From: Candidatus Zhuqueibacterota bacterium
GTDB lineage: Bacteria; Zhuqueibacterota; QNDG01; JABMRT01
DNA: 35,510 nt
Direction of reading: 5' to 3'
NCBI GenBank assembly: GCA_013202295.1
Contig: JABMRT010000175.1
Location: 1-35,510, forward strand
The notes under the pieces are model-generated. The model was not told where the DNA came from. It saw only the letters and a list, made by a program, of their open reading frames with translations, and did no database searches. Shown here piece by piece: positions 1,274 to 29,237 of this stretch (the first letter of the stretch is position 1; the number at the start of each line of letters is the position of its first letter). The translations under genes and the position numbers were made by a program.

Positions 1274-2419
1274 ATGAAGATTATTCTGGCTCCTGATTCA
1301 TTTAAAGATTCGCTTTCTGCGCCAAGGGTTTGTGAGGCGATGGCGAATGGCATTCGGCGAGTGATCTCCAACGCAGATATTGTCCAATTGCCATTGGCAG
1401 ATGGAGGGGAAGGAACAGTACAGGCACTGGTGGTTGCGACAGGGGGATCTTTTAAGAATGTGGAAGTCACGGGGCCGTTGGGTGAATCTGTCAATGCCCA
1501 GTACGGATTTCTCGGGGATGGTGAGACAGCAGTGATTGAGATGGCTGCAGCTTCAGGACTGGAGATGTTGCCAAAGGCAAAACGCAATCCACTTCACACA
1601 AGCACGGTTGGTACGGGTCAGATGATCCGTGACGCGCTTGAACGGGGAATGCGGAGAATCTTCATTGGGATCGGTGGATCAGCTACCACGGATGGAGGGT
1701 GCGGTATGGCACAGGCCCTGGGTGTCCGATTTTTTAATGTCTCCAATCAGCAAATTATGGAACCCATGACAGGAGATCGGATGGGGATCGTCCGGCGAAT
1801 CGATCTCTCCGGTCTGCACCCTGCTGTTTGCAAATCTGAATTCCGGGTCTTATGCGATGTGGCAAATCCACTTTTGGGTCCTGATGGATCAGCGCGGGTG
1901 TACGGGCCGCAGAAGGGAGCGAGCCCGGCGGATGTTGAAATACTTGAACAGAATATGACAAGTGTCTTTGATGTGATTGAATCCGAGATCGGTCATGATG
2001 TCCGTCATATACCAGGCGCGGGAGCAGCGGGTGGTCTGGGTGCGGGCCTAATGGCGTTTCTCAACGCCAAACTGGAATCAGGGATTGAGCTGATTCTTGA
2101 TGCCATCCATTTCTATGAAAAAAGTAAAAATGCTGATCTGATACTGACTGGCGAGGGGAGGGTGGATCATCAGACGGCATTTGGCAAGACGATAGCGGGT
2201 GTGGCCGGGGCAGGGAAGGCATTAAACATTCCGGTAATTGTTTTAGCTGGTTCTATTGGTTCAAACATAGAGAATCTGTATGATACTGGTGTTACGTCTG
2301 TATTTGCCATTTGTGACGAGTCGATCACTCTGGAAGAATCGATGAATCGGGCGGCTGAATTGGTGGCGAATGAGACTGAACGGGTAATTCGATTTCATTG
2401 GATAAAAGGGGAAGGATAA
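1274..2419 (+). CDS. Glycerate 2-kinase (GlxK/GarK type I family)
   Basis: This 381-aa protein has the full-length layout of the bacterial type I glycerate kinase family. The N-terminus MKIILAPDSFKDSLSA is diagnostic. The LADGGEGTVQAL segment (about residue 43) and the glycine-rich GIGGSATTDGGCGMAQALG loop (about 132-150) form the substrate and nucleotide sites. PGAGAAGGLGAGL and LTGEGRVDHQTAFGKT follow in the C-terminal half, as expected. The reaction is ATP-dependent phosphorylation of D-glycerate to 2-phosphoglycerate, feeding glyoxylate or sugar-acid catabolism into lower glycolysis. That suits an organism degrading uronic-acid polysaccharides, but the gene is not adjacent to those enzymes. 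The start is ATG; no strong ribosome binding site is seen. Confidence 0.93.
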   Translation: MKIILAPDSFKDSLSAPRVCEAMANGIRRVISNADIVQLPLADGGEGTVQALVVATGGSFKNVEVTGPLGESVNAQYGFLGDGETAVIEMAAASGLEMLPKAKRNPLHTSTVGTGQMIRDALERGMRRIFIGIGGSATTDGGCGMAQALGVRFFNVSNQQIMEPMTGDRMGIVRRIDLSGLHPAVCKSEFRVLCDVANPLLGPDGSARVYGPQKGASPADVEILEQNMTSVFDVIESEIGHDVRHIPGAGAAGGLGAGLMAFLNAKLESGIELILDAIHFYEKSKNADLILTGEGRVDHQTAFGKTIAGVAGAGKALNIPVIVLAGSIGSNIENLYDTGVTSVFAICDESITLEESMNRAAELVANETERVIRFHWIKGEG

Positions 2420-2519
2420 ACTGAGTACAATGAATGGTGAAAGGAGAATGTAATTATATTGACAAGATCAGGATCGTTTTCTTTAATGGATCAGGAATGA
2501 TCTAATCCTTAGATCCCAG

Positions 2520-2544
2520 AAAAAAAAGGGCAGGTCAATGACCC
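2520..2544 (-). terminator. Possible weak terminator of the DEAD-box helicase gene
   Basis: Read on the minus strand just after the helicase stop, a short GC-containing inverted element (gggtcattgacctgccc) is followed directly by eight T residues. The stem is short and can pair in alternative ways, so the call rests mainly on position and the T tract. Confidence 0.4.
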
Positions 2545-2558
2545 ACGCTACAAAAAAA

Positions 2559-3797
2559 TCACTTCCTCTTCTTCGACCGCTTTCTTTCCCTTTTTGTATC
2601 TGCATCGACCAAAGCCTGAAGATCATCCATTAGTGTGGAAGCGGGAGGTTCAAGCGTAAATGCGTATTCTTTCTTACTGATTTGAATCACTTCAATATTT
2701 TTATTAATAAACGTCTGAATCTCATCCAGGCGTTCTTTTTCCTCAGGGCTGCAGAAAGAAATGGCGATGCCTTTGTTCACGCCCCGTCCGGTGCGGCCTA
2801 CGCGATGCACATAATTCTCCGCCTTATCTGGCAAATCATAATTGATCACATAATGCACGTTCGGTACATCAATCCCCCGGGCGCTGACGTCTGTGGCGAT
2901 GAGAAGCTGACAGTCTCCTTCTTTAAACATTTTCATGACTTTTGAGCGGTCTTTCTGTTCCTTCTCCCCATGAATCGTGTACGATTTGATTTGAACACGC
3001 TCCATGGCCTTGACCACGCGCTCTGCACGAACCCGCGTCCTCACAAACACGATGATTTTGCTTTCCGGGTGATCGTTGATGAACCGCTCCAGGAAAAACC
3101 GTTTGTCATCCATCTCCACAAACATAACATAATGAGAGACATTCTTTGCGACCGGATCATCGGGCGAAATCTGAATGCGAATGGCTGAGCTTTTCACCTG
3201 AGAAAAGGCCAGTTTTTTGATTTCTTTATTGATGGTCGCGGAGAAGAAGAGGGTCTGATGTTTTTGCGTGAGTTTGCGTTTGACGTAGGTGATATCGTCA
3301 ATAAAGCCCAAATCCAGCATGTGATCGGCTTCATCCAGCACAAGGGTATTCACATGCTTGAGATCCACATATCCCTGGCTGATCAAATCAAACAGACGGC
3401 CCGGTGTGGCGATCAATACGTCAAGGCCATTCTGCAGCTTCTTGATTTGCGGGTCCTGCTCCACACCCCCATAAAGTGCGAATGGATTGGTTTTGGTATG
3501 TTTTGACAGGCTTGAGAAGACTTCACCGATTTGCATGGCCAGTTCGCGTGTGGGCACCATGACGATGCATTGAATGCCTGCGGTGCGCCTGCTGCTTTTA
3601 CCCCGATGAATCCGGTCTATGAGGGGGATCGCGAACGCGGCGGTTTTGCCTGTGCCGGTCTGTGCGATGGCCAGTACGTCTTCCCCTTTCAGGATAGACG
3701 GGATGGCCTTGAACTGGATGTCTGTCGGTCTTTTAAATCCAAGGCCCGCAAGGTTCTTCTTTATTTCAGGAGTGATGTTGTATTGTTCAAATTTCAT
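2559..3797 (-). CDS. DEAD-box ATP-dependent RNA helicase (RhlE-like)
   Basis: A 412-aa two-RecA-domain helicase with every core motif: the Q-motif region (F.RPTDIQ, about 21-28), motif I AQTGTGKT (45-52), Ia PTRELA, Ib TPGR, motif II DEAD (155-158), motif III SAT (186-188), IV VFVRTR, V ATDVSARGID and VI HRVGRTGR. A short lysine/arginine-rich tail (KRERKRSKKRK) closes the protein, as in RhlE/CshA-type proteins that bind structured RNA. The likely role is ribosome assembly or mRNA turnover, especially in the cold; the exact subfamily is not certain. It is transcribed alone, and a terminator-like T tract lies immediately downstream. Confidence 0.95.
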   Translation of the reverse strand: MKFEQYNITPEIKKNLAGLGFKRPTDIQFKAIPSILKGEDVLAIAQTGTGKTAAFAIPLIDRIHRGKSSRRTAGIQCIVMVPTRELAMQIGEVFSSLSKHTKTNPFALYGGVEQDPQIKKLQNGLDVLIATPGRLFDLISQGYVDLKHVNTLVLDEADHMLDLGFIDDITYVKRKLTQKHQTLFFSATINKEIKKLAFSQVKSSAIRIQISPDDPVAKNVSHYVMFVEMDDKRFFLERFINDHPESKIIVFVRTRVRAERVVKAMERVQIKSYTIHGEKEQKDRSKVMKMFKEGDCQLLIATDVSARGIDVPNVHYVINYDLPDKAENYVHRVGRTGRGVNKGIAISFCSPEEKERLDEIQTFINKNIEVIQISKKEYAFTLEPPASTLMDDLQALVDADTKRERKRSKKRK

Positions 3798-4046
3798 GAT
3801 CTGTCCAATTCTATAAATGCTGATAGAAAATATCGATTTATGGATTCATTTCAAAATTAAAAAAATTGTGAGTGGATCTTGGTCCACCATCATTCTATTC
3901 CAGATGAGAAAATAGATAAATTCTAAATATTTCCTTGGAGTTTTGAAAATTTATACTATATTTTTTTATGGAAAAAAAATCCATTAAATCTAGCAAACAA
4001 CAAAAGAGGCAAAAACCGTCTGTGTATTAAAATCGAGGAGTGTGTT
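3798..4046. other. Divergent intergenic region with palindrome gtggatcttggtccacc
   Basis: AT-rich region between the divergently transcribed helicase and outer membrane protein genes; promoters for both are expected here, but I cannot place them with confidence. It contains the 17-base palindromic word gtggatcttggtccacc at 3872-3888. The same word recurs exactly at 5168-5184. Before the plus-strand gene there is a good Shine-Dalgarno (gaggag) seven bases upstream of the ATG. Confidence 0.5.
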
Positions 4047-4742
4047 ATGTCCAAATTCAAGTCCTATCAAAGTCAAGTCATTTTGATTGCGATTTTCATT
4101 GTTTTATTTTGTGCGTCCAATGTTATAGCGGGTGGCAAGCTGGGTATTTACTTTATTAGTATGGTGCCGCGTGGTGAAGATGCTGATAATTACAGCCGTC
4201 CGGGATATGGAGGAGGCATTCATGTGGTTGCGCCGCTTCCACAAGTGTCAAATTTTATCGCAGTGACCGGTGGTTTTGAATATATAAACCTAATGAGTGA
4301 AACGAAGGAATTTAGGCAGGAACTCACCCAATTAAGAATAGAGCAGCAAACAGATCAGCATTATCTCCGTTTTTACGCTGGAGGTCGTGTCGGCGGACAT
4401 GGGCTTGGATTCATACGACCCTATGCGGGGATGAATTTGGCTCTCGTGGTTTATGGTATTGATATGGATGTGGTTATTCCGGATGACCATAATTATGAAA
4501 ATGAAATAAATCAGGATTTAGATTCGGAAAACCACGCTGTTTTTGGTTCTGACATTACATTGGGTGTGGATTTCAATTTCTGGAACAAGTGGAATCTGGA
4601 TACGGGTGTACGGTATCTGAAAAGCTTCTCCGTACCGGAACAGCTTTGGGAAGGATCTGAAAAAATCCATTCGGAGTATTTTCAGTTCTATTTTGGTGTT
4701 GGGGTTTCTTTTCGGACGTTACGAAAAGCAAGTACGGATTAG
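4047..4742 (+). CDS. Predicted outer membrane beta-barrel protein (hypothetical)
   Basis: The 231-aa protein has a clear signal peptide: basic start MSKFKSYQSQ, hydrophobic core VILIAIFIVLF, then a cleavage-like CASNVIAGG around residue 30. The mature part alternates short amphipathic strands and turns (GGIHVVAPLP, AVTGGFEYINL, LRFYAGGRVGG, YAGMNLALVVYG, LGVDFNFWNKWNLDTGVRYL). It ends with FQFYFGVGVSFRTLRK, which resembles a final beta-strand. This suggests a small eight-stranded OmpA/OmpW-like barrel. No specific family is recognised and no function is assigned. It is a single-gene unit with its own terminator. Confidence 0.7.
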   Translation: MSKFKSYQSQVILIAIFIVLFCASNVIAGGKLGIYFISMVPRGEDADNYSRPGYGGGIHVVAPLPQVSNFIAVTGGFEYINLMSETKEFRQELTQLRIEQQTDQHYLRFYAGGRVGGHGLGFIRPYAGMNLALVVYGIDMDVVIPDDHNYENEINQDLDSENHAVFGSDITLGVDFNFWNKWNLDTGVRYLKSFSVPEQLWEGSEKIHSEYFQFYFGVGVSFRTLRKASTD

Positions 4743-8105: not shown

Positions 8106-11100
8106 TTATTTAATCAAGATGATTTTCCGGTTCTGAATGACGGATCCAGCCATCATGCGAACGAGATAAATACCACCCGATACGGGATGGCCTTCATCAT
8201 TCCGGCTGTTCCAGCGGATTTCATGATGTCCTGCGGATTTATTTGCATCCAGTACAGTTCGCACGCACTGGCCCTGCAAGTTGTAGATTGTGATTTTAAC
8301 TCGTGAATCCTTAGCGAGCGCGAATGGAATCACGGTTTCCGGATTGAAGGGATTGGGGTAATTGGTTCCGAGATAGGTTGTGCTGGGTAATTGAGGTTCG
8401 TCAAGGACTGCAGTTACAACTGCCACATCAGATGGATTTGAGGAAAGGGTCACTGTGGTTTCACCAAGTTTGTTTTCTTCCTCATCGAGAAATGACACAA
8501 AGAGTTCATCGCCGGGTTTCCATGCAGAGTTGAAGTTTCCGCATTGAACGGTCCAGACTTCATTGGTGAGTTTACATCCGGGCGAATTCTGAGTTAAAAT
8601 GTCCCCGGGCCGTGAATTAATATAGGCACTCAATCCAGCTATCCCGGAAACCGGTTCACCCCATACCAAATGGGGGGCCTGACTGGATTCCGAAACAGAT
8701 CCATAAGATTCTACAAAAAGATTCTGTTTCGATGCCGAGGAAGACGGCCAGGTTCCTACAGAAGTGACATTGACCAGATAGGGATGTCCAACCTGAATCG
8801 CAAAATCAGATCCGGGAATGCCCGGATCGTATTGATCTGAATACCCCTGTGCGGAAGCATCCCATTGGGCCACTGCATTACAATTGGGGATGTCATCGCA
8901 CAAATCTGATGCATCCGCGAGATCGGTTCGATCCAATGGTAGAAGAACCTGATTGAATGAACTTGTCGCGGATGTAACCAAAGTGTACGAGGGAGAAATG
9001 ACCTTTCCGGTCAATGTCCAGAACGAATCCGAGGACACGTTTACATAATAGACCTGACCCATTGCGACTGAAAAATTATTGATATTATATTCCGGGATAT
9101 ACTGTTCGAATCCCTGATGTTGCGCATCCCAACGGGCGACGCTATTGCATCCGGGAATCGCGGACATCAACGTACTCGCGGTTCCGATCCCTGATATCTC
9201 AAGCGGGAATCCCACGGCATTGAAATCCGTCCCTGAGGTTACTACGAGGGTGTAATCAAATTCACCATAGACATCCGAAGGATCTCCTTCATACAATCCG
9301 CTGATGGCGGTGACTTTGTAAAAGTACTGTGTATTCGGGTCACCGGTCACGCTTCCCGGATCGGTCCATTGCAACTCCGTGACTCCAGCTGCCACCTGTT
9401 TGGCCGGTGTGATTTCAACATCCACATCGGTATCGCGATAAACATTAAATTCGCTCACATTGTTCATTTGCTGCCAGGTGAGGGTCACCTGATCCGGCGC
9501 GGTCTGTTCGATTCCGGTTAAAGTCACTGGCGACAACTCCACCAGATTCAATTCCGTGATATGAGAGATGCCCACCATGCCGTTCGTATTTGAAGAGCGG
9601 ACCCTAAGATAATAATCCGTATTTTGCAGAAGTGTATCGATATGGATTGAATGGGACGTATTTAACCCAGAGTCTTTCGTCGAAAGTTCACCCAGGTTCT
9701 CAGTGGTGCCGAACTCAATGAGAGAGTTTGAGGATTGGTCAGTCTGCCATGTGATTGTCGCGCCACTGGCAGTGACTTCAGTAATCTGCACATTCGAGAT
9801 GGTTGGATAATCCGGATATGTATAGCTGCCGGGTGAGTAGTAATTCCAATTTTGTTTTAACCGTCTGTAGAGTGGATCTTCCCATTTTGGAAACTTAGGC
9901 TGATAAGGATTGTCTGCTGCGTTCCAGAAAACTTTGAATTGTCCGTCTGCTGAGTCATACACGATCATTTCTTCACGTCCATCTCCGGCGATGTCGGCAA
10001 CATAAAGTATGTGTGCCTGTATTGAGGGATAATGACCCATGGATGTCCACAATGAGTCGCAGGTGATCGCGTCAAATATGCCGAAATGTCCTTCAACCCA
10101 GCGTGCCTTGGCTGCTATATTCTCCTTAGGACTACCGGTCCAGTCTATGGTCCAGATCATCTCAAGACCCATTCGATTGCCCATCTCTGGAAATGTGTTA
10201 AATCCTAAAGGAAGTCTTTCATAGGTTCGATAAGTTGCGATGATGGAACCAGTGCTGTTAAAAACCCATGGCCACTGGGAATCGAATGGCCGGTAGTAAA
10301 CGGCCGGATCTCCGCCACCGAGACGTGAGCGCACCCAGATCTCGGTGTGTGGGCTGGATAAATTGAAATTACCCACCGCAGTGTGTTGCGGCTCTCTGAA
10401 TATTTCATACCCGCCAAAATTTATCTCTTCATACCATGCGACTCCCTCGCTGGAAACCAGGGCGGTGTGATATTCTGACAGACTTCCATCCTCTTCGGTG
10501 ACCACCCATTCGAGACCAGGCAAATCCGGCCTGAAATTTCCGACCGAGACTCCATCCAGATGGTCGACAAAACTGGTACTTTCGTCGAATGAAAGCCAGC
10601 CGGTCGGGTATCCGATGTCATGCACACTGCCATCATCTTCAATCAAATTGCCGCCGACGACTTCATCCAATCCATCCAGATCGACATCGGCCGCGAAGAA
10701 GGGGCCGTGCGCCTGTCCCCAGTATCCTTCATAAAGTCCATCGCCCGGATCGGCATTTTGTTTCACCGTCCAAAGCGTGTCGCCACTTTCCAGATTCATT
10801 GCGATGAGGGTTCGGTTCAGATAATAGCCGGTGGCATGAGCTTGATAATCATGATTTTCATCCAGGACATCGCAGGTTTGAATGATGGCGTCACGATCGC
10901 CCATATTGCGCAAATTCACAATAGCTACATGACATCCCAGTTGATTGATATCGAGAGGCGGCAGGTCGTAAGTGGTCTCCAAATCACCGCTGGCACCATC
11001 AAAGATCAGAAGTTGTTCACTATTGTTAAGAGCAACCACTTCCACATTACCATCGCCATCAACATCGGCAGCACCATGTTTTACCCCGTAATTATTGATT

Positions 11101-11360
11101 GTCGGTCCTGGATAGGGTACGTTGGTGTACCAGAGAAGGGATCCATTGTGCCGGTAAGCATATAGAGTCGTTTCAGAACGAAATGTGAAATCAGGCAAAT
11201 CGTCATTGTCCAGATCGGCTACGAAGAATGTACCCCAGAAAGGGCTTTCAGGCACAGAGAAAGTAAATGGATTGGTTGCATACTCTGGGAAATCTGCATG
11301 CGAAAGCAGTGAGAAAAATATAATATTGAGAAGAAGTAATCGTGTGAGATTCTGACGCAT
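8106..11360 (-). CDS. Secreted PL11-like rhamnogalacturonan lyase / FG-GAP propeller protein with accessory modules and FlgD-like C-terminus
   Basis: A 1084-aa exported protein with a signal peptide at about 1-22. Residues 40-515 form a beta-propeller with calcium-loop repeats: ADLDNDDLPDF, ADVDGDGNVEVV, ADVDLDGLDEVVGG and ADIAGDGREEMIV. The order QAHGPFFAADVDLDGLDEV, then a 'DDG' segment, PGLEWVVTEEDG, then ADIAGDGREEMIV and a final QNWNYYSPG resembles PL11 rhamnogalacturonan lyases (YesW/YesX). PL11 membership is inferred from this pattern and from the GH105 neighbour; a generic FG-GAP protein is the alternative. Two fibronectin-III-like domains follow (517-610, 612-700). Then come two copies of an about 85-residue module (703-791, 792-872), a third module (895-975) and a FlgD-like domain (996-1084, NYPNPFNPETVIPF to ILIK). 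Confidence 0.72.
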   Translation of the reverse strand: MRQNLTRLLLLNIIFFSLLSHADFPEYATNPFTFSVPESPFWGTFFVADLDNDDLPDFTFRSETTLYAYRHNGSLLWYTNVPYPGPTINNYGVKHGAADVDGDGNVEVVALNNSEQLLIFDGASGDLETTYDLPPLDINQLGCHVAIVNLRNMGDRDAIIQTCDVLDENHDYQAHATGYYLNRTLIAMNLESGDTLWTVKQNADPGDGLYEGYWGQAHGPFFAADVDLDGLDEVVGGNLIEDDGSVHDIGYPTGWLSFDESTSFVDHLDGVSVGNFRPDLPGLEWVVTEEDGSLSEYHTALVSSEGVAWYEEINFGGYEIFREPQHTAVGNFNLSSPHTEIWVRSRLGGGDPAVYYRPFDSQWPWVFNSTGSIIATYRTYERLPLGFNTFPEMGNRMGLEMIWTIDWTGSPKENIAAKARWVEGHFGIFDAITCDSLWTSMGHYPSIQAHILYVADIAGDGREEMIVYDSADGQFKVFWNAADNPYQPKFPKWEDPLYRRLKQNWNYYSPGSYTYPDYPTISNVQITEVTASGATITWQTDQSSNSLIEFGTTENLGELSTKDSGLNTSHSIHIDTLLQNTDYYLRVRSSNTNGMVGISHITELNLVELSPVTLTGIEQTAPDQVTLTWQQMNNVSEFNVYRDTDVDVEITPAKQVAAGVTELQWTDPGSVTGDPNTQYFYKVTAISGLYEGDPSDVYGEFDYTLVVTSGTDFNAVGFPLEISGIGTASTLMSAIPGCNSVARWDAQHQGFEQYIPEYNINNFSVAMGQVYYVNVSSDSFWTLTGKVISPSYTLVTSATSSFNQVLLPLDRTDLADASDLCDDIPNCNAVAQWDASAQGYSDQYDPGIPGSDFAIQVGHPYLVNVTSVGTWPSSSASKQNLFVESYGSVSESSQAPHLVWGEPVSGIAGLSAYINSRPGDILTQNSPGCKLTNEVWTVQCGNFNSAWKPGDELFVSFLDEEENKLGETTVTLSSNPSDVAVVTAVLDEPQLPSTTYLGTNYPNPFNPETVIPFALAKDSRVKITIYNLQGQCVRTVLDANKSAGHHEIRWNSRNDEGHPVSGGIYLVRMMAGSVIQNRKIILIK
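8745..9254 (-). repeat. Tandem pair of a protein module within the PL11-like gene
   Basis: Two adjacent copies of an about 85-residue module are encoded here. Both share the pattern Y-T-L-V .. FN-x4-PL-x4-D/G .. A-S-x-L .. IPxCNxVAxWDAxxQG(F/Y) .. Y.P .. F-x4-G-x2-Y-(Y/L)-VNV .. W. The same pair occurs in the GH105 protein at 14142-14648. The repetition is at the protein level; the DNA copies have diverged. Confidence 0.8.
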
Positions 11361-11577
11361 TTGATTCCAATCATTGTATCACTGTGCAACCTGTTAATAG
11401 TGTTGTTATTTATGCAAATTTTATTCCGTACTGATGAGGATTTAATTCTACATAAAATTAACATTATAAATTCTGGAGTTAACTCGAATTTTAAATAATC
11501 TGTTCCCCAAAATATAAAAATATCTTAACCTTATGTTCGAATGTAAACCGATCTTATGGGCAGTATCTGACCAGTGG
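11361..11577. other. AT-rich spacer inside the pectin-degradation gene cluster
   Basis: A 217-base spacer between the glycosyltransferase gene and the PL11-like gene, both on the minus strand. It is very AT-rich and could hold a promoter for the PL11-like gene. I find no confident box, hairpin or small gene. Confidence 0.3.
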
Positions 11578-13401
11578 TTATAATATGTCGGATTTCATAT
11601 AAATCTTTACTTCTTTAAAATCTGAGACTAAATGATAACCAGATTCACCATGGTCCAATCCCCGATAATAATTAAATCTTTTAGTAAACAACTCACTTCC
11701 ATGGACATATGTATCAACAGCGTTGCTGTCCGCGAAAGCATATCGAATTCTGAAATTGGTCAGAACCACATCGGGATCAGTTAATTTTAAAGAATCATTT
11801 GTTGCATAATAATGGAAATTGACATTCAAATATTCCGGGGGGATGTATGTAAAATGATCCGCTAGGATCTGCTGTTCAGGAGAGATATTTTCTTTAATCC
11901 ATTCACCGGCCATGATCGAAGGATTCCTGACCGCTTTACCCAGCAGGTAGTTCTGAAATTCGAATAAGGAGTGGGTAGAATAGGATACATCTGCAATTGT
12001 AATAACGCAGAATATCATCAATAGAATTTTATAAATCAATTTTGTTTGATGGTTTAACCAGAAGAATATCTGGCTCCAGGTTATGGCAGTAATGACAATG
12101 ATTGATGGAATAACGGGTAATAAATATCTCATTCTGGCCATATTAATACGAACCGCTAAAAATCCGATATATAGTACAGTCCAGCCCCAAAAAAGAGTTT
12201 CCGGTACCGACATGATGTTTTTTCTATATCTGATAAAATAATAGATAATGAATGCCAATCTTGAGAATAATATCGTTGTAAGGAAGATCCCGAAAAACGG
12301 CTTTGAAAAGAGGAAACCAATCCATGTTATTAAAGTAGATGATTCCTGAAATACATGTCCCGATGCAGTGTGATGGGATTCATATAATATACCGGAAATA
12401 AAATTGAAACCGATAAAAGATGCGGGGGATGTGATAAAAAAGGCAATTACGAACGAAATAAGAAATAAATATGATGTTATGAGCAGATGATAAAAATTTA
12501 CCCATAAAGTGTGAATGATTCTTGTTTGCTGAAATTTCCATTTTATTATGTAAATCAGGATGAATATTACTACACATCCCAATGATACAAACCTCAAAGT
12601 TTCCAACATACGCAGCATTGTAGGATTGTCTATCACACCATCTGTTGTGATTAACCTGGCGATGATTTTTGGAGAGGCTAATAAAGAGAACACAATAAAA
12701 AATACAATTGTCAGGATATGACTCCAGGTTCCATAGCAATCGGAAATGAGAAGTGAATGGACGTTCTCTTTTTTATTCAGTTGAATCATAACCAATATGG
12801 GGACCAGGATGAATATAAATATACCAGAGTATTTACATGCGAAAGCGAGTCCACTTAAACATCCCGCAAGGATCAACCATTTAATCGAATGACGTATATA
12901 GAATTTGTATAGAGCGATTAAACTACCTGTTATGAAAAACATTTGTAGCATGTCAGGATGTGAAATGATCGCATAGTCATGTGCAATAAATGTATATATT
13001 GCGATTATAATAATGGCAATGTACGCACTTATTTGATTGATGTGTTTTCTAATGAAAATAAAGAGCAGTGCTGCTGTAAGGTATTCAAAACATAATGGAA
13101 TAATTCTCAATGTTAATATGATTGTTTTTTCTGATATAAATGTGAAAAGACTTATCAATTTTAACAATATTATCGAGAGATTAAAATAGAGATGTCCATA
13201 ATTTGAAAAAACAATCGTATAGTTGGGATCCTCAATAGAATTTTTCACAATATCAAGATGCAGTGCTTCGTCGACATTATTGGCTTCAACCATTCTTGCA
13301 TTTTCAGAAAAGGTTTGGATGATATCCCTTGAAAAAAACAAGTAGAAGAGCAATAGAGTGAGGAGAATAATGGGTAGCTCAAAATTCAGTTTTCGCATCA
13401 T
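11578..13401 (-). CDS. GT-C fold membrane glycosyltransferase (PMT/ArnT-like)
   Basis: A 607-aa polytopic protein with about 11-13 hydrophobic segments. It has the GT-C layout: a first transmembrane helix (ELPIILLTLLLFYLFF), then a periplasmic loop with the acidic motif NVDEALHLDIV. A conserved HPDMLQMFFITGSLIALYKF segment and RMRYLLPVIPSIIVI in the last transmembrane part follow. The C-terminal tail is soluble. Such enzymes move sugars from polyprenyl-phosphate donors to proteins or lipids in the periplasm. I start at ATG 13401 (MMRKLNFELP) because AGGAAAA lies seven bases upstream. A TTG at 13470 would add 23 polar residues and nearly touch the preceding gene. It sits between two secreted polysaccharide-degrading enzymes, which suggests co-regulation. 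Confidence 0.8.
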   Translation of the reverse strand: MMRKLNFELPIILLTLLLFYLFFSRDIIQTFSENARMVEANNVDEALHLDIVKNSIEDPNYTIVFSNYGHLYFNLSIILLKLISLFTFISEKTIILTLRIIPLCFEYLTAALLFIFIRKHINQISAYIAIIIIAIYTFIAHDYAIISHPDMLQMFFITGSLIALYKFYIRHSIKWLILAGCLSGLAFACKYSGIFIFILVPILVMIQLNKKENVHSLLISDCYGTWSHILTIVFFIVFSLLASPKIIARLITTDGVIDNPTMLRMLETLRFVSLGCVVIFILIYIIKWKFQQTRIIHTLWVNFYHLLITSYLFLISFVIAFFITSPASFIGFNFISGILYESHHTASGHVFQESSTLITWIGFLFSKPFFGIFLTTILFSRLAFIIYYFIRYRKNIMSVPETLFWGWTVLYIGFLAVRINMARMRYLLPVIPSIIVITAITWSQIFFWLNHQTKLIYKILLMIFCVITIADVSYSTHSLFEFQNYLLGKAVRNPSIMAGEWIKENISPEQQILADHFTYIPPEYLNVNFHYYATNDSLKLTDPDVVLTNFRIRYAFADSNAVDTYVHGSELFTKRFNYYRGLDHGESGYHLVSDFKEVKIYMKSDIL

Positions 13402-13478
13402 ATATTTTCCTGATAAGTTATCTCTATCCATTGAGAAATATTTGAAATTATTTGATACCCGATAATCCAATAATTAGA

Positions 13479-16187
13479 CTATCTGACCAAAAGGATTTTT
13501 TGCTTAAAAATCTGTTCTGATGCAGACAATTCGATCAGGTACACACCACTTGCGACAGAATGCCCCTGATCATCCATGCCGCTCCAATTGATTTCATGTT
13601 TCCCAGCAAACATTTCCCGCTTAAGCAATGTGCGAACCAAACGTCCAGTGATATCCATAATGCGGATATCCACTGGGCCAGATGCTGCGATTTCATAGGG
13701 AATACGTGTTGTACTGTTAAACGGATTGGGATAATTGGCATATAATTGCGTTATATAAGGCTGATGGTCCGGTTCTTCAGGATATAATAATGCGGCTTTA
13801 TCTGAAGGATTCCAACTGAGAGCCGCTTCATAATATTTGACATTATTATTTCTGTCTATAGCCTGAATCGTAACGATTTCACCTTCTCTCCATCCAGATG
13901 GAAGGGAAGCGCATTGTATCACCCATCCCGATTCAAAGATATCACATCCCGGTGAATCTGCTGTGAGGATTTCATCTGGTCGTGAACCGATGAATGCTGC
14001 AAGTTCAACAGGTTGGAACTCATGCTGCGAGTCCTGGACTCTCCAGATGATCAGATGTGGAGCGCTGGAACATTTATCTACCAGAACAGGCTGCTTGGGT
14101 GATTGATGTACCGATTTATTGGAATTAAGCAAAGGGGTTGGCCAGACACTGTTGTCTGTGACATAGACCAGATACCCATATCCTGGATATATGGTAAAAT
14201 CTGTTTCAGGGGCAGATGGATCGTATTGAATATAACCCTGTATTGTTACATCCCATTTTGCGACACTGTTGCAGTCATTGATATCGACCAACAGATCGGA
14301 AGCATTTTCTATATCCTGCTTATCAAACGGAAGTGTGATTGTATTGAAATGTGTGCTTTCACCGACGGCTAAAAGTGAATATACTGGCAAGTCGTATTGT
14401 CCATACATTATATAAAATGTATCGGCAACAACATTTATGAAATATACTCCATGTGTCATCACATCGAAATTTGTTGAATGTACTTCATCAACATATTGAG
14501 AATACCCTTGATACTCTGCACTCCAATACGCAGCAGAATTACAGGCTGGCACAGCTTCGATAAGGGTTGCTGCATTAGAAATATCTGTTTGGTGAAAGGG
14601 AAGTGCGATAAGATTAAAATTAGTAGAAGACGTTGTAGACAATGGATACCTAATAAATCCAAATACCTCAGAAGGATCTGATTTTTTGCCTTGATCATCA
14701 ATTGCACAGATTTTATAAAACTGAGCCTGATATGAATATCCAGACAACTCAATATTTGTATCAATAAATAAATTATTGTTTAAAATGTCGGTTGAATCTG
14801 AACTCACGCAATCAAACTCCGGACATGAAGCGTGATATAGGCGGTAATGTGAAATATTTACTGGATAATCATACACATCAAGTGTAACCGGTTGCCATTG
14901 AACTGAGGGATTGTTTCCATCGATGGATATTTCCAGTTCATCCACTGGTTTCGGTTTATGGACGCTAGAACGAAAAAAGGTTTTTGCCATGAGATATGCA
15001 CCAAGACCCCATACTCTGTTGTTGCCCAGCGGCACATTGACATAATAGTTATAATCTCCAATGGTTGTTCCACCAGATATGCTGTGTATAATAACTTCAC
15101 TATTCTGGGATTGGATGTATACCCTTTCATTTAACCCATCATTTCCCAGCTGGCTATAGACAGAATGATCAAATGGAAGCCATCCATTTAGAATGCCTTT
15201 TTCAATGCCGTATACATACATTGCTGAAGCGGATGTTTCAAGGTAATTCCCCGATGCCCCTCCCTGGTCAACCACGGTATACCACAATCCAGTCGCAGGA
15301 TCCTGTAACGACAGCAGCTTATTGATTAGATCTGAATATAATCCTTCAAGGGCGGTTCTGTTTACATGATCAAGAGGAACATAATCTAGTAATTCACTCA
15401 ACACAACAACCGCCCATCCGTTACCCCGTCCCCAGAAACAAGCCGATTGATGGGTAACCGGATTTGCCCATATCGCAGATCCATCTTCATCCCAACCATG
15501 ATAGAACAGGTTCGATGCATCGTCGAAAATGTACTCCTTGTGCCATAGCATCTGATTTACTGCTTCATCAATATAGGTCATATTTCCAGATACTTCAGCG
15601 TAATACATCAGAAAGATGCTGGTCATAAAAAGGGTGTCAATCCATAATTCATCTTCAAATATATGGGCCAGCGCTCCATTGGAAACACGTAATACAGTAT
15701 TTTGAATATAATCCGCGACGATTTGAGCGGCAGTGAGGTAGTGCTGATCCGATGTTTTTTGATAGAGAAGGGGCAGCAGTATTGCCGGTGAGATTTTATT
15801 TGCATATGCAATTGGATCAATATGAACAGTAATATTTCCGTTCTGTGGAACATAATGGTCAATATAATCCTTTACATACAAGTAATATGCCAAATTCCCA
15901 GTCGCCTCATAAGCCTGCCACAATCCATACATTAACACGCCTTCTCCCCAATTCCAATCCCAACTGGAGGGATCTGGATGAAATTGCAAGATTGAGTTTG
16001 CCAGAAGGATGAGCCAATCCGGTTCGCTGTTGGAATTTAATGATGGAAGTACCTTTTGCTGGTACGTATTATCAGGCAGGCAAGTGATCTCGGTAGTTGA
16101 CGCAATACTTCCCTGCCATCCTAAAAGGCTTAAGAGAATTATTATTGCCAAGGTGAACTGTGGAATATTTGCAGCCCATTTAGGCAT
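13479..16187 (-). CDS. Secreted GH105 unsaturated rhamnogalacturonyl hydrolase with accessory modules and FlgD-like C-terminus
   Basis: A 902-aa protein. The signal peptide is at 1-30 (hydrophobic FTLAIIILLSLLGW). The catalytic (alpha/alpha)6 barrel of the GH88/GH105 type spans about 55-408: DWNWGEGVLMYGLWQAY, then ELWIDTLFMTSIFLMYYA with D184 matching the general acid of the B. subtilis YteR type, FWGRGNGWAVVVLSELLDYVP (250-270) and YLETSASAMYVYGIEKG. It would remove the unsaturated galacturonate from rhamnogalacturonan lyase products. After a fibronectin-like stretch (410-512) come tandem modules (514-602, 603-682), a third module (708-790) and the FlgD-like domain (815-902). An AGGAT ribosome binding site precedes the ATG by five bases. 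It is the first gene of a minus-strand cluster. Confidence 0.92.
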   Translation of the reverse strand: MPKWAANIPQFTLAIIILLSLLGWQGSIASTTEITCLPDNTYQQKVLPSLNSNSEPDWLILLANSILQFHPDPSSWDWNWGEGVLMYGLWQAYEATGNLAYYLYVKDYIDHYVPQNGNITVHIDPIAYANKISPAILLPLLYQKTSDQHYLTAAQIVADYIQNTVLRVSNGALAHIFEDELWIDTLFMTSIFLMYYAEVSGNMTYIDEAVNQMLWHKEYIFDDASNLFYHGWDEDGSAIWANPVTHQSACFWGRGNGWAVVVLSELLDYVPLDHVNRTALEGLYSDLINKLLSLQDPATGLWYTVVDQGGASGNYLETSASAMYVYGIEKGILNGWLPFDHSVYSQLGNDGLNERVYIQSQNSEVIIHSISGGTTIGDYNYYVNVPLGNNRVWGLGAYLMAKTFFRSSVHKPKPVDELEISIDGNNPSVQWQPVTLDVYDYPVNISHYRLYHASCPEFDCVSSDSTDILNNNLFIDTNIELSGYSYQAQFYKICAIDDQGKKSDPSEVFGFIRYPLSTTSSTNFNLIALPFHQTDISNAATLIEAVPACNSAAYWSAEYQGYSQYVDEVHSTNFDVMTHGVYFINVVADTFYIMYGQYDLPVYSLLAVGESTHFNTITLPFDKQDIENASDLLVDINDCNSVAKWDVTIQGYIQYDPSAPETDFTIYPGYGYLVYVTDNSVWPTPLLNSNKSVHQSPKQPVLVDKCSSAPHLIIWRVQDSQHEFQPVELAAFIGSRPDEILTADSPGCDIFESGWVIQCASLPSGWREGEIVTIQAIDRNNNVKYYEAALSWNPSDKAALLYPEEPDHQPYITQLYANYPNPFNSTTRIPYEIAASGPVDIRIMDITGRLVRTLLKREMFAGKHEINWSGMDDQGHSVASGVYLIELSASEQIFKQKILLVR
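14142..14648 (-). repeat. Tandem pair of the shared module within the GH105 gene
   Basis: Residues 514-602 and 603-682 are two copies of the module seen in the PL11-like protein: FNLIALPFHQTDISNAATL with AVPACNSAAYWSAEYQGY, and FNTITLPFDKQDIENASDL with INDCNSVAKWDVTIQGY. Copy 1 of each protein resembles copy 1 of the other, and copy 2 resembles copy 2, so the pair was inherited or transferred as a unit. Confidence 0.8.
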
Positions 16188-23828: not shown

Positions 23829-24848
23829 ATGTATGAACGATCTATGGAAAAACAGAATCTCCGGATAATATTCTTCTTGCTGCTGGTCCATTTGTTTAAT
23901 GCGTATGGAATTGTATTCGCACAAGACAGGATGGAATGGTGGCGAGACGACAAGTTTGGCATGTTCATTCACTGGGGGATTTATTCCGTTCTGGGCCGTG
24001 GTGAATGGGTGATGGTCACGGAACTGATACAGAATTATCCGGTTTCGAATATATGGTTTGATGCAGATTATCAGATTGGGTATTCGGATCAGGATGCGAT
24101 AAATCTGTACAACTTGTGTCTTTATCTCAATCCGGATATCATTGTTAATAATCGTGTAAATCATGATTTGCCAAATGCAGGTGATTACCTCACACCAGAG
24201 CAGGAAGTTCCAGAAACACCACCAGAACGTGATTGGGAAACTTGTATGACGATCAATTCCAATTGGGGATTTCATCAGTATGATCACAATTGGAAAACGA
24301 GTGAATCGCTCATCCATACTTTACTGGAAATCAACTCAAAGGGCGGTAATCTTCTTCTCAACATTGGTCCGACCGCTGATGGTGTGATCCCCAGCCAAGT
24401 GTGAATGTACTGGTTGAAATGGGTGAGTGCCTGGAAGGCTGGTGAAAAGCTGATCGTCCAGTTTCGAGATTTAGAAAAAGTATTGCTTGAAGAAATTGAG
24501 GTTCCCCTGAGTTACAATCCTGATGATCAAGCAGGGGAAGTGAATTTGGATGAAATGAACTTTCTGCCATCCAGATTTCACCTCGGTCAAAATTATCCGA
24601 ATCCGTTCAATCCGAGTACGATAATCAATGTTGCTGTACCGAGATCTTCGCAAGTTCGGGTCGTTGTGTATAATATCCAAGGGCAAATTGTCAGAATTTT
24701 AAAAGATGGGGATATGACAGCAGGGTTTCACCAGGTCGTTTGGGATGGCCATGATGATATGGGACGTTCCCTCGGGAATGGTGTGTATTTGATACAAATG
24801 GAGGGTGTTAATTTTATTCAAAGGCGAAAAGCCTTGTATATCAAATAA
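23829..24848 (+). pseudogene. Decayed GH29 alpha-L-fucosidase with FlgD-like C-terminus
   Basis: The 5' part encodes a signal peptide and GH29 start (RMEWWRDDKFGMFIHWGIYSVLG). At about 24009-24020 it jumps to a segment normally more than 100 residues further on (ELIQNYPVSNIWFDADY, keeping the nucleophile-type Asp78). It continues through DWETCMTINSNWGFHQYDHNWK to GGNLLLNIGPTADGVIP. A base has been lost from the C run at 24389-24392. The TGA at 24402 follows, but the shifted frame still reads QPSVNVLVEMGECL, the expected GH29 continuation. A second junction near 24425-24433 changes frame again into a remnant of the third module (SAWKAGEKLIVQF) and a complete FlgD-like domain (NYPNPFNPSTIINV to ALYIK). 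Most of the barrel is missing, so activity is unlikely. Confidence 0.88.
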
Positions 24849-27128: not shown

Positions 27129-29237
27129 CTAACGAAGCAGTGTAATCTTTCGTGACGCCGAGAAATTCTTCGCCTGCATCCGGATCAAATAGATACCACT
27201 GCTGACCTGTTGATCCATCTCATTGGAGCCATCCCAGGTGAGACGATATTGACCTGGTTTATGGCCAGCATCTATTAAAACCTTAATTCGTTGACCCCTT
27301 GAATTATATATTGTGATGCGCACGTTTCCCGATCTTGGCACGATATAAGGGATTGATGTATCTGAATTAAATGGATTGGGGTAGTTGGAACCTAATGAGA
27401 ATGAGGAGGCTTGTTGATGATCTGAATCTGAAATTCCGTTTTGGATGCCGATTGAGCTGCCGATAACTGTGATCATTGTCTCACCCAGACCGAGTGAAAA
27501 ATCTGTGGTTAACTGCGATTCACCATTTTGAATTGAGATTTCATACTCACCCAAAAAACCTCTTGTTGCTGCCTCACCTTGACTGTCGGTGAAGAGTTCC
27601 TCGTTTGTCCACCAGGTTTCAGTGACCAGTTCCACCCATGTTTCACCATGGGGCCGCAGGTTCCAGTCTTCATCCCAAAAAGCTGCGGTCGGTTTCCAAT
27701 GCTGTCCGGCCCAGAATCCCCAGGTTAAAATTCCAACTGTAGAAGGATGGGCGAAATAGGCAGTCATGAAATCGCGCGTGTAATCGACTTGCAGATCCTC
27801 ATAAGGTGAATCAATATCAAATTCTGTGGCCTGAATTTCCAGTCCATAGCCAGCAAGATGATCCAGAACCGCCCAGATGCGTTCCGGGGGAGTGACATTG
27901 GTACCGAAATGGCATTGCGTACCCAATCCCTGAAGCGGTGCACCATTGTCCAGCAGAAATTGAACTGTATTGTAGAAATCTTCCTGATGGGCAGCGTCTA
28001 CACCTCCACCGGAGATGATGTTGTTGTCGTTGAGATAGAGTATGGCGGTCTGATCCATCTCGCGGGTTTTGTTAAACCAATCCACCATAACTTCATCGCC
28101 GAGGACATCCATAATATCATGGTTCCAGAAGGGTTCATTGATCACATCCCAGTCCACAAGCATACCAGACAGAGCTCCCGCTTCCTCCTCAATGTGATCA
28201 AGCACCCTGATTTCAAGATAAATCGGATTATTTTCGTTCTCTTCCAGATCGTCTGGCGTATTATTCCATGACGGCCAGACGAGACAATGGCCGCGAATCT
28301 CAATTCCCATATCATTGAGCATGTCCAAAGCATCAAGTGTGGCATTTCGGTCCCAGCTTTCCCACGGTCCCCATTTCAGATCATTCTCCATGACCACACG
28401 ATTGAAATAGGTTTCAATGGTCTCATTGTATTGCTGGGCATCCGAATCGCCCTGCATCATTCTCCGGGCATCGACAGCTGAGCCGAATTTGTAGGCGTGC
28501 TTTTTCATCTCCACGCGAACGAGGGCGTCCTCTACCGGATTGCTATTATCATCCAGAACCAAAATAGAAATGTCCGCTTTGCGATATGTGTCAATCATTT
28601 GCTCAGCTTGTGCACGCCAGGGTGCATCCGGATCCTTACCCTCATAATCCGGCGTGGTTCTTGGCAGGTCTTCCACCTCATAAGCGTCATGATAATTCAA
28701 TAACTCCAATCCACCGAACTGAATGGTCTGGGGATTGTATCCCAATCGGAACAGGACATTTGCACCACCGATTGAATAATCCTGAACGGGACTGAACGGG
28801 ATGAAATACTGCTTCCATTCACCTACGACAGAGATTGGGAATGAGATGGATTTATCCCATGGATCGGCTGCGGTTTCGAAAATAAATTCAGAGAAGGCTT
28901 CTCCGCTCTCCTGACTGGATTCAATCCCTCTTGCATAAAAGACAGCAAGCAGGGCATCGTCTTCATCCACTGCGGCGGAGATAGAAAGGCCGAGTTGTAC
29001 GCCCCAGGTGTTATCTGGAAGTACGGTTGTCTCGGCCTGTATGGCCCGGTCGAATGGCATGCTATCCACATCCACAATTGTTCTTCGCCCCAGACTGCTG
29101 CCCTGCAAACTCATCCGAATTGCTGCATCCTCCGGTAAAACAGGATCGCCACCAGTGGGAATTTCCTGTGAGAGAACCGGGATGGAAAGGGCAAGGCCGA
29201 TTAATAAGATTGATACAATAGTGTTTTGCTGTGCCAT
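27129..29237 (-). CDS. Secreted GH10 endo-1,4-beta-xylanase with FlgD-like C-terminus
   Basis: A 702-aa protein with a signal peptide at 1-23. Residues about 40-185 form a jelly-roll CBM4/9-like domain (FPISVVGEWKQYFIPF, GGLELLNY). A short beta region containing KKHAYKFGSAVDARRM leads into the GH10 barrel (about 205-545). Visible there are VMENDLKWGPWE, RGHCLVWPSW, the acid/base E368 in DWDVINEP, and the nucleophile E472 in IQATEFDI, followed by GILTWGFWAGQHW and RPHGETW. A linker leads to the FlgD-like domain (about 612-702; NYPNPFNSDTSIPY to KITLLR). It cleaves internal xylan linkages outside the cell. A gagg ribosome binding site precedes the ATG; it heads the operon with the MBL and CDF genes. 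Confidence 0.95.
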   Translation of the reverse strand: MAQQNTIVSILLIGLALSIPVLSQEIPTGGDPVLPEDAAIRMSLQGSSLGRRTIVDVDSMPFDRAIQAETTVLPDNTWGVQLGLSISAAVDEDDALLAVFYARGIESSQESGEAFSEFIFETAADPWDKSISFPISVVGEWKQYFIPFSPVQDYSIGGANVLFRLGYNPQTIQFGGLELLNYHDAYEVEDLPRTTPDYEGKDPDAPWRAQAEQMIDTYRKADISILVLDDNSNPVEDALVRVEMKKHAYKFGSAVDARRMMQGDSDAQQYNETIETYFNRVVMENDLKWGPWESWDRNATLDALDMLNDMGIEIRGHCLVWPSWNNTPDDLEENENNPIYLEIRVLDHIEEEAGALSGMLVDWDVINEPFWNHDIMDVLGDEVMVDWFNKTREMDQTAILYLNDNNIISGGGVDAAHQEDFYNTVQFLLDNGAPLQGLGTQCHFGTNVTPPERIWAVLDHLAGYGLEIQATEFDIDSPYEDLQVDYTRDFMTAYFAHPSTVGILTWGFWAGQHWKPTAAFWDEDWNLRPHGETWVELVTETWWTNEELFTDSQGEAATRGFLGEYEISIQNGESQLTTDFSLGLGETMITVIGSSIGIQNGISDSDHQQASSFSLGSNYPNPFNSDTSIPYIVPRSGNVRITIYNSRGQRIKVLIDAGHKPGQYRLTWDGSNEMDQQVSSGIYLIRMQAKNFSASRKITLLR

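Follow-up and report, generated by a model that had tools for sequence, protein, structure and literature searches.

The two carrier genes

The window, that is, the whole stretch of 35,510 nucleotides that was analysed, belongs to a genome of 5.1 Mb in 303 contigs. It holds two large genes on the reverse strand, called P1 and P2 here, separated by a gene for a PMT-family membrane glycosyltransferase (11578-13470) that lies on the same strand as both. A third member of the group has decayed. The features are as follows.

8106..11360 (-): P1, ORF of 1084 aa; signal peptide, divergent PL11-like beta-propeller head, fn3 domains, module pair, PHV domain and type IX sorting domain
8988..9254 (-): P1 module copy 1, from pairwise alignment (model residues 2-90)
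8748..8987 (-): P1 module copy 2 (C-terminal end ...TWP), from pairwise alignment and the structure model
8418..8684 (-): P1 PHV domain, about 95 aa, unnamed, Ig-like beta-sandwich
8109..8381 (-): P1 C-terminal type IX sorting domain (FlgD_ig / Por_Secre_tail)
13479..16187 (-): P2, ORF of 902 aa; signal peptide, GH105 head (YteR-like unsaturated rhamnogalacturonyl hydrolase), fn3-like region, module pair, PHV domain and sorting domain
14382..14648 (-): P2 module copy 1, from pairwise alignment
14142..14381 (-): P2 module copy 2, from pairwise alignment
13788..14069 (-): P2 PHV domain
13482..13754 (-): P2 C-terminal type IX sorting domain (TIGR04183, 39.9 bits; cut-off 23)
23829..24848 (+): decayed third member, a GH29 alpha-L-fucosidase remnant with an in-frame stop, the C-terminal half of PHV and a sorting domain

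P1 matched FG-GAP_3, fn3, FlgD_ig and TIGR04183 (34.1 bits against a cut-off of 23). Its head is of the rhamnogalacturonan lyase 11 type, and the genome search gave RGL11_C at 31.7 bits (cut-off 27). A full-length relative in genome G002, 52 % identical to P1 across 1102 aa, has a head that matches RGL11_C at 5.9e-15. The head of P2 was assigned from Glyco_hydro_88 (2.4e-83) and from YteR (1nc5; E 8e-57).

P1 and P2 share a C-terminus of 419 residues that is 39 % identical and made of the two modules, the PHV domain of about 95 aa and the sorting domain. The earlier note had described a two-copy block common to the two proteins; the block is present, but the common region is the whole 419-residue C-terminus, and the PHV partner had been missed. 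The GH29 remnant aligns with residues 2-68, 178-303 and 893-1028 of a 1028-aa protein of G002 (L056, laid out as GH29-pair-PHV-CTD). Two internal stretches are gone, including the region that holds the module pair in this intact relative. A GH10 protein in the window (27129-29237, -) has a type IX sorting domain with neither the pair nor PHV, and provides a contrast to the carriers.

The module is an obligate tandem pair

The four copies of approximately 85 residues, two in each protein, were found as the earlier note had reported them. They are 36-47 % identical; the scores of the six pairings run from 134 to 200 (z 22-34), and shuffled sequences reach 45-60 at most. The correspondence of copy 1 with copy 1 (score 197) and of copy 2 with copy 2 (200) was borne out as well, since every cross pairing is lower (134-158). 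Across 45 tandem pairs of the phylum, 88 of the 90 copies have their closest counterpart in another protein among copies of their own type. Tandem pairing is obligate in the phylum: two tandem copies were seen in all phylum module proteins with both sides visible, and when a 56-row profile was run on 82 phylum genomes, the module count was even in every one of the 27 positive genomes. The proposal that the two-copy block moves as a unit is supported by these counts.

In the wider family, 34 of 56 copies have the Cys that the earlier note took to be conserved, which means that this residue does not define the module. A metal-binding or disulfide role for it was dropped, as the residue is not conserved.

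No credible match to the module was found in Pfam, NCBIfam or the PDB sequences with the four copies, with 14 two-copy blocks or with the 56 phylum copies. The earlier note's view that the module has no name holds for these libraries. Isolated low scores of the PTPS/QueD type came from one member and were dropped because the others did not have them in common. Searches for relatives of the module in viral contigs and on plasmids found none.

Modelled by AlphaFold2 together with 13 relatives, the two-copy block of the window has a pLDDT of 89.8 and a pTM of 0.84. Each copy is predicted to fold roughly as b-b-a-b-b-b-b, a mixed alpha/beta arrangement with one helix. The compact beta domain suggested earlier is thus compact and folded in the model, not disordered, but it is not purely beta. 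Comparison of the predicted structure of the pair with the PDB and with viral structures by Foldseek gave no match at E <= 0.001. The remaining hits were implausible, among them a weak match to the TDP-43 N-terminal domain (probability 0.23). The confident model, taken with the empty Foldseek and library searches, points to a module that is probably folded and has no named relative in the libraries searched.

By profile comparison, the module appears to be a divergent relative of a widespread, unnamed tandem domain with the pattern WNLIS...GYWV. The alignment of the two profiles covers 68 columns from end to end (hhalign probability 91.9 %, E 7e-7), against 0.1-0.4 % for the controls (A6 0.2 %, CTD 0.1 %). 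This domain has no Pfam name. Like the module, it is arranged in tandem, with two copies in 20 of the 21 proteins examined, and its similarity to the module spans the whole domain. It differs from the module in that the identity is only about 10 %, the CN.VA.W / QGY motif is missing, and its position is not limited to the stretch just before PHV or the C-terminus. An example in the window's genome (G000:C10:53896-54399) belongs to a protein unlinked to P1 and P2. Three GYWV proteins have PHV at the N-terminus. In L107 (G000:C10, ORF 2021-4078, 685 aa), an N-terminal PHV is followed by the tandem WNLIS...GYWV pair and a sorting domain, which is the opposite order to that in P1 and P2. Proteins like L107 occur in G001 (L115) and G005 (L113).

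The PHV domain accompanies the pair

The most telling feature of the arrangement is the PHV partner. PHV is a domain of about 95 residues that starts with 'APHLVWG' or 'APHLIIW' and follows the pair in P1 and P2. It found no match in Pfam or in the PDB sequences. In Foldseek, its model weakly resembles Ig/fn3 and CBM20/48 sandwiches; among the latter, the AMPK glycogen-binding domain was matched with a probability of 0.75 and a TM of 0.50 on the target, and fn3 domains score equally high.

The pair and PHV occur together, and they are either fused or adjacent. Of the 82 phylum genomes, 26 have both, one has the pair only (weak, at a contig edge), two have PHV only (marginal) and 53 have neither (Fisher p 6e-18, with shared ancestry ignored). 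In families f13, f16, f18 and f20, the genera with the pair are also those with PHV, apart from a marginal PHV match in f13; in f19, the single genome without the pair is also without PHV. Outside the phylum, the module was found in 14 and PHV in 10 of approximately 306 genomes, and both were found in 7, against about 0.5 expected (p ~1e-8). Pair and PHV lie in neighbouring genes in five genomes outside the phylum (G084, G221, G232, G238 and G371).

In the genome search, PHV was found downstream of 49 of 54 pairs, on their strand and no further than 1.2 kb away (shared ancestry again ignored). Two of the remaining five are at contig ends, and the other three have a PHV gene a short way upstream in their cluster. 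When 52 pairs were classified by what follows them, two populations emerged. In 27, a further 202-239 aa follow the pair, and all of these contain PHV and a sorting domain. In the other 25, the ORF ends within 0-41 aa, and none has PHV or a sorting domain. Of these ORF-ending pairs, 19 adjoin a PHV gene, three share a cluster with one and two are cut by a contig end; the last, L089, is next to a gene for 250 aa in which a divergent PHV is weakly detected (8e-4). The neighbouring PHV genes mostly encode signal-peptide-like N-termini and usually their own sorting domain, the usual protein at a split locus being signal peptide-PHV-(fn3)-sorting domain. A minimal split system lies outside the phylum (L091 in G221, 3104-3781, -), where a 225-aa protein of signal peptide and pair only is encoded next to a 734-aa signal peptide-PHV-PEGA-sorting-domain protein.

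PHV domains also occur away from any pair (21 of 85, weak matches included). Extra PHV genes, some of them very large, often come after a fused pair-PHV protein (L035, L037, L041, L042, L044, L045, L048, L053, L088 and L106).

Heads and distribution

The module is present in 27 of the 82 phylum genomes, which are of the KSB1 type, and its relatives include MAGs of the KSB1 candidate division. The heads of the pair proteins vary and comprise PL11, GH105, GH2, GH29, GH31, DUF5060/apiosidase-like, FG-GAP/ASPIC, subtilase, CotH and unannotated ones. A set of secreted proteins of approximately 1490-1640 aa (L060, L061, L063-L066 and L068, in families f7, f9 and f19) has a C-terminal pair and is followed by a gene for PHV, fn3 and a sorting domain; the heads of L060 and L063, when scanned, gave no match to a Pfam domain.

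The earlier note had tied the module to pectinolytic enzymes. The link is understandable, because nearly all carriers in the window's order are plant-polysaccharide enzymes (PL11, GH105, GH2 and GH29). It did not survive the wider survey. Only two proteins of the window's genome carry the pair, and they account for one of the genome's four RGL11_C and one of its seven GH88/105 matches; elsewhere the pair is found with subtilases, CotH, GH31 and FG-GAP/ASPIC heads. Pectin specificity as a defining trait was therefore rejected. A general need of the module for type IX export was rejected too, since the same genome has at least 150 sorting-domain matches, and nearly all such proteins lack the module. 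With so few PL11/GH105 and sorting-domain proteins carrying it, neither pectin degradation nor type IX export requires the module. The module is also separate from the type A sorting domain (TIGR04183 / FlgD_ig), although both sit at the same end of the same proteins: TIGR04183, PF13860 and PF18962 have no match inside the module and match only C-terminal to it.

Single-copy module proteins were found in G120 and G265, outside the phylum, with E values to the profile down to 7e-12. They (L092-L097) have a single module, a different domain of about 100 aa and a 'NYPNPFNPETWIPYQL' sorting domain, and there are seven copies in G120. Like P1 and P2, they have the module followed by approximately 100 aa and a sorting domain, but there is one copy and no convincing PHV. 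Homology of the 100-aa domain to PHV was unsupported (hhalign probability 9.8 %).

We found no paper on the module or on PHV, nor on type IX secretion in KSB1. A KSB1 survey lists CAZymes and does not mention pectin (PMC9012183).

A putative docking couple and its alternatives

We propose that the module pair is a protein-docking unit and PHV its cognate, so that the two form a couple, acting in cis or in trans, that would tie secreted heads to a sorted tail. We give this reading an even chance. The couple would link a secreted head (an enzyme, propeller, protease or adhesin-like protein) to a type IX sorting tail that is probably held at the surface. In P1 and P2, where head, pair, PHV and sorting domain are fused, it would act in cis. 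At split loci, the head protein ends after the pair with no sorting domain, and would dock in trans on the separately exported PHV protein of the neighbouring gene.

Docking is our best reading in view of the obligate pairing, of the co-occurrence and fusion or adjacency of pair and PHV, of the split arrangement, of the presence of the type IX translocon and of the packing in the fused model. The translocon protein SprA was found at 844 bits in the window's genome, and the cut-off was passed in 22 of 25 genomes. AlphaFold2 modelled the pair, linker and PHV of P1 (293 residues) with a pTM of 0.84 despite a disordered linker (residues 177-190). By arithmetic on pTM, an undetermined position of PHV would give approximately 0.6, and the value obtained implies an average error in the predicted placement of PHV of about 1-4 Å. 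PHV is thus predicted to be confidently placed against the pair in this fused form; the model is an intramolecular one, of one covalent chain, from a single run with a 14-sequence alignment. From these results we infer that pair and PHV could also bind physically in trans, and that docking would serve export or surface attachment.

Some observations go against docking. Further PHV genes lie behind many of the fused proteins as well, which leaves the choice of partner in trans ambiguous, and there are the PHV domains that lie away from any pair. P1 and P2 do not need docking for export, because they have their own sorting domain. The gene neighbourhood of pair and PHV could also be explained by co-regulation or gene fission.

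The strongest alternative is that pair and PHV form one rigid stalk that joins the head to the sorting tail and involves no recognition of a partner, the split genes being products of fission kept together by co-transcription. The position fits, as the pair is found without exception towards the C-terminus, with fn3/Ig-like domains ahead of it and the sorting domain behind; the heads are mutually unrelated; and the packing in the fused model would suit a stalk equally. We nonetheless consider it unlikely. At split loci, a signal peptide and in most cases a sorting domain belong to the PHV product, and the head product lacks a sorting domain, so that a split stalk would have lost its connection to the tail. 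A passive spacer needs no strict co-occurrence of its parts, and pair and PHV are absent from more than 100 sorting-domain proteins of the window's genome.

It is decidedly improbable that the pair is a carbohydrate-binding module, for plant pectin or for the cell's own surface glycan, with PHV as a second sugar-binding domain. The idea draws on the carbohydrate-active carriers of the window's order, on conserved Trp and Tyr residues and on the likeness of PHV to CBM20/CBM48-type domains, which is weak and equalled by fn3. The pair is missing, though, from most of the PL11 and GH105 proteins in the genomes that carry it, and it is found on subtilases, CotH and ASPIC propellers. The 56 copies matched no CBM of Pfam, the Foldseek search gave no PDB fold at E <= 0.001, and a substrate binder needs no obligate partner domain.

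That the C-terminal pair is a new type IX sorting signal, with the adjacent PHV protein as its dedicated carrier or shuttle, would agree with the 25 pairs that end their ORF (0-41 aa after the pair) at the usual site of such signals with no recognised sorting domain, and with the dedicated carriers used by type B substrates of Flavobacterium (PMC10994853), but this is very unlikely, as the pair is internal in 27 proteins with a normal sorting domain after it, and PHV proteins look soluble and sorted, unlike outer-membrane carriers of the PorV/PorP kind.

The docking couple would work like the cohesin-dockerin system of cellulosomes, in which a small duplicated C-terminal module on diverse enzymes has its cognate domain on a surface-bound protein. 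Here too, two putative cognate domains are in strict genomic association, and unlike cohesin and dockerin they are often fused in cis. The likeness would be one of working principle only, and no Pfam or PDB match relates the module or PHV to cohesin or dockerin.

What is new to the libraries searched is two co-occurring unnamed families, fused or split; the principle of a docking couple is already known. Type IX secretion is understood to require a sorting domain on each cargo. It is possible, if doubtful, that the sorting signal is supplied in trans, with heads that lack a sorting domain being exported or surface-held by docking on a PHV protein, and with P1 and P2 as the cis form. If true, the fused-or-split couple would offer a way round the rule of one sorting domain per cargo in uncultured bacteria. 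It would also give a name and a functional hypothesis to two domain families that are present in dozens of genomes and blank in present databases, and the pair and PHV could serve as a ready-made orthogonal docking pair for enzyme display.
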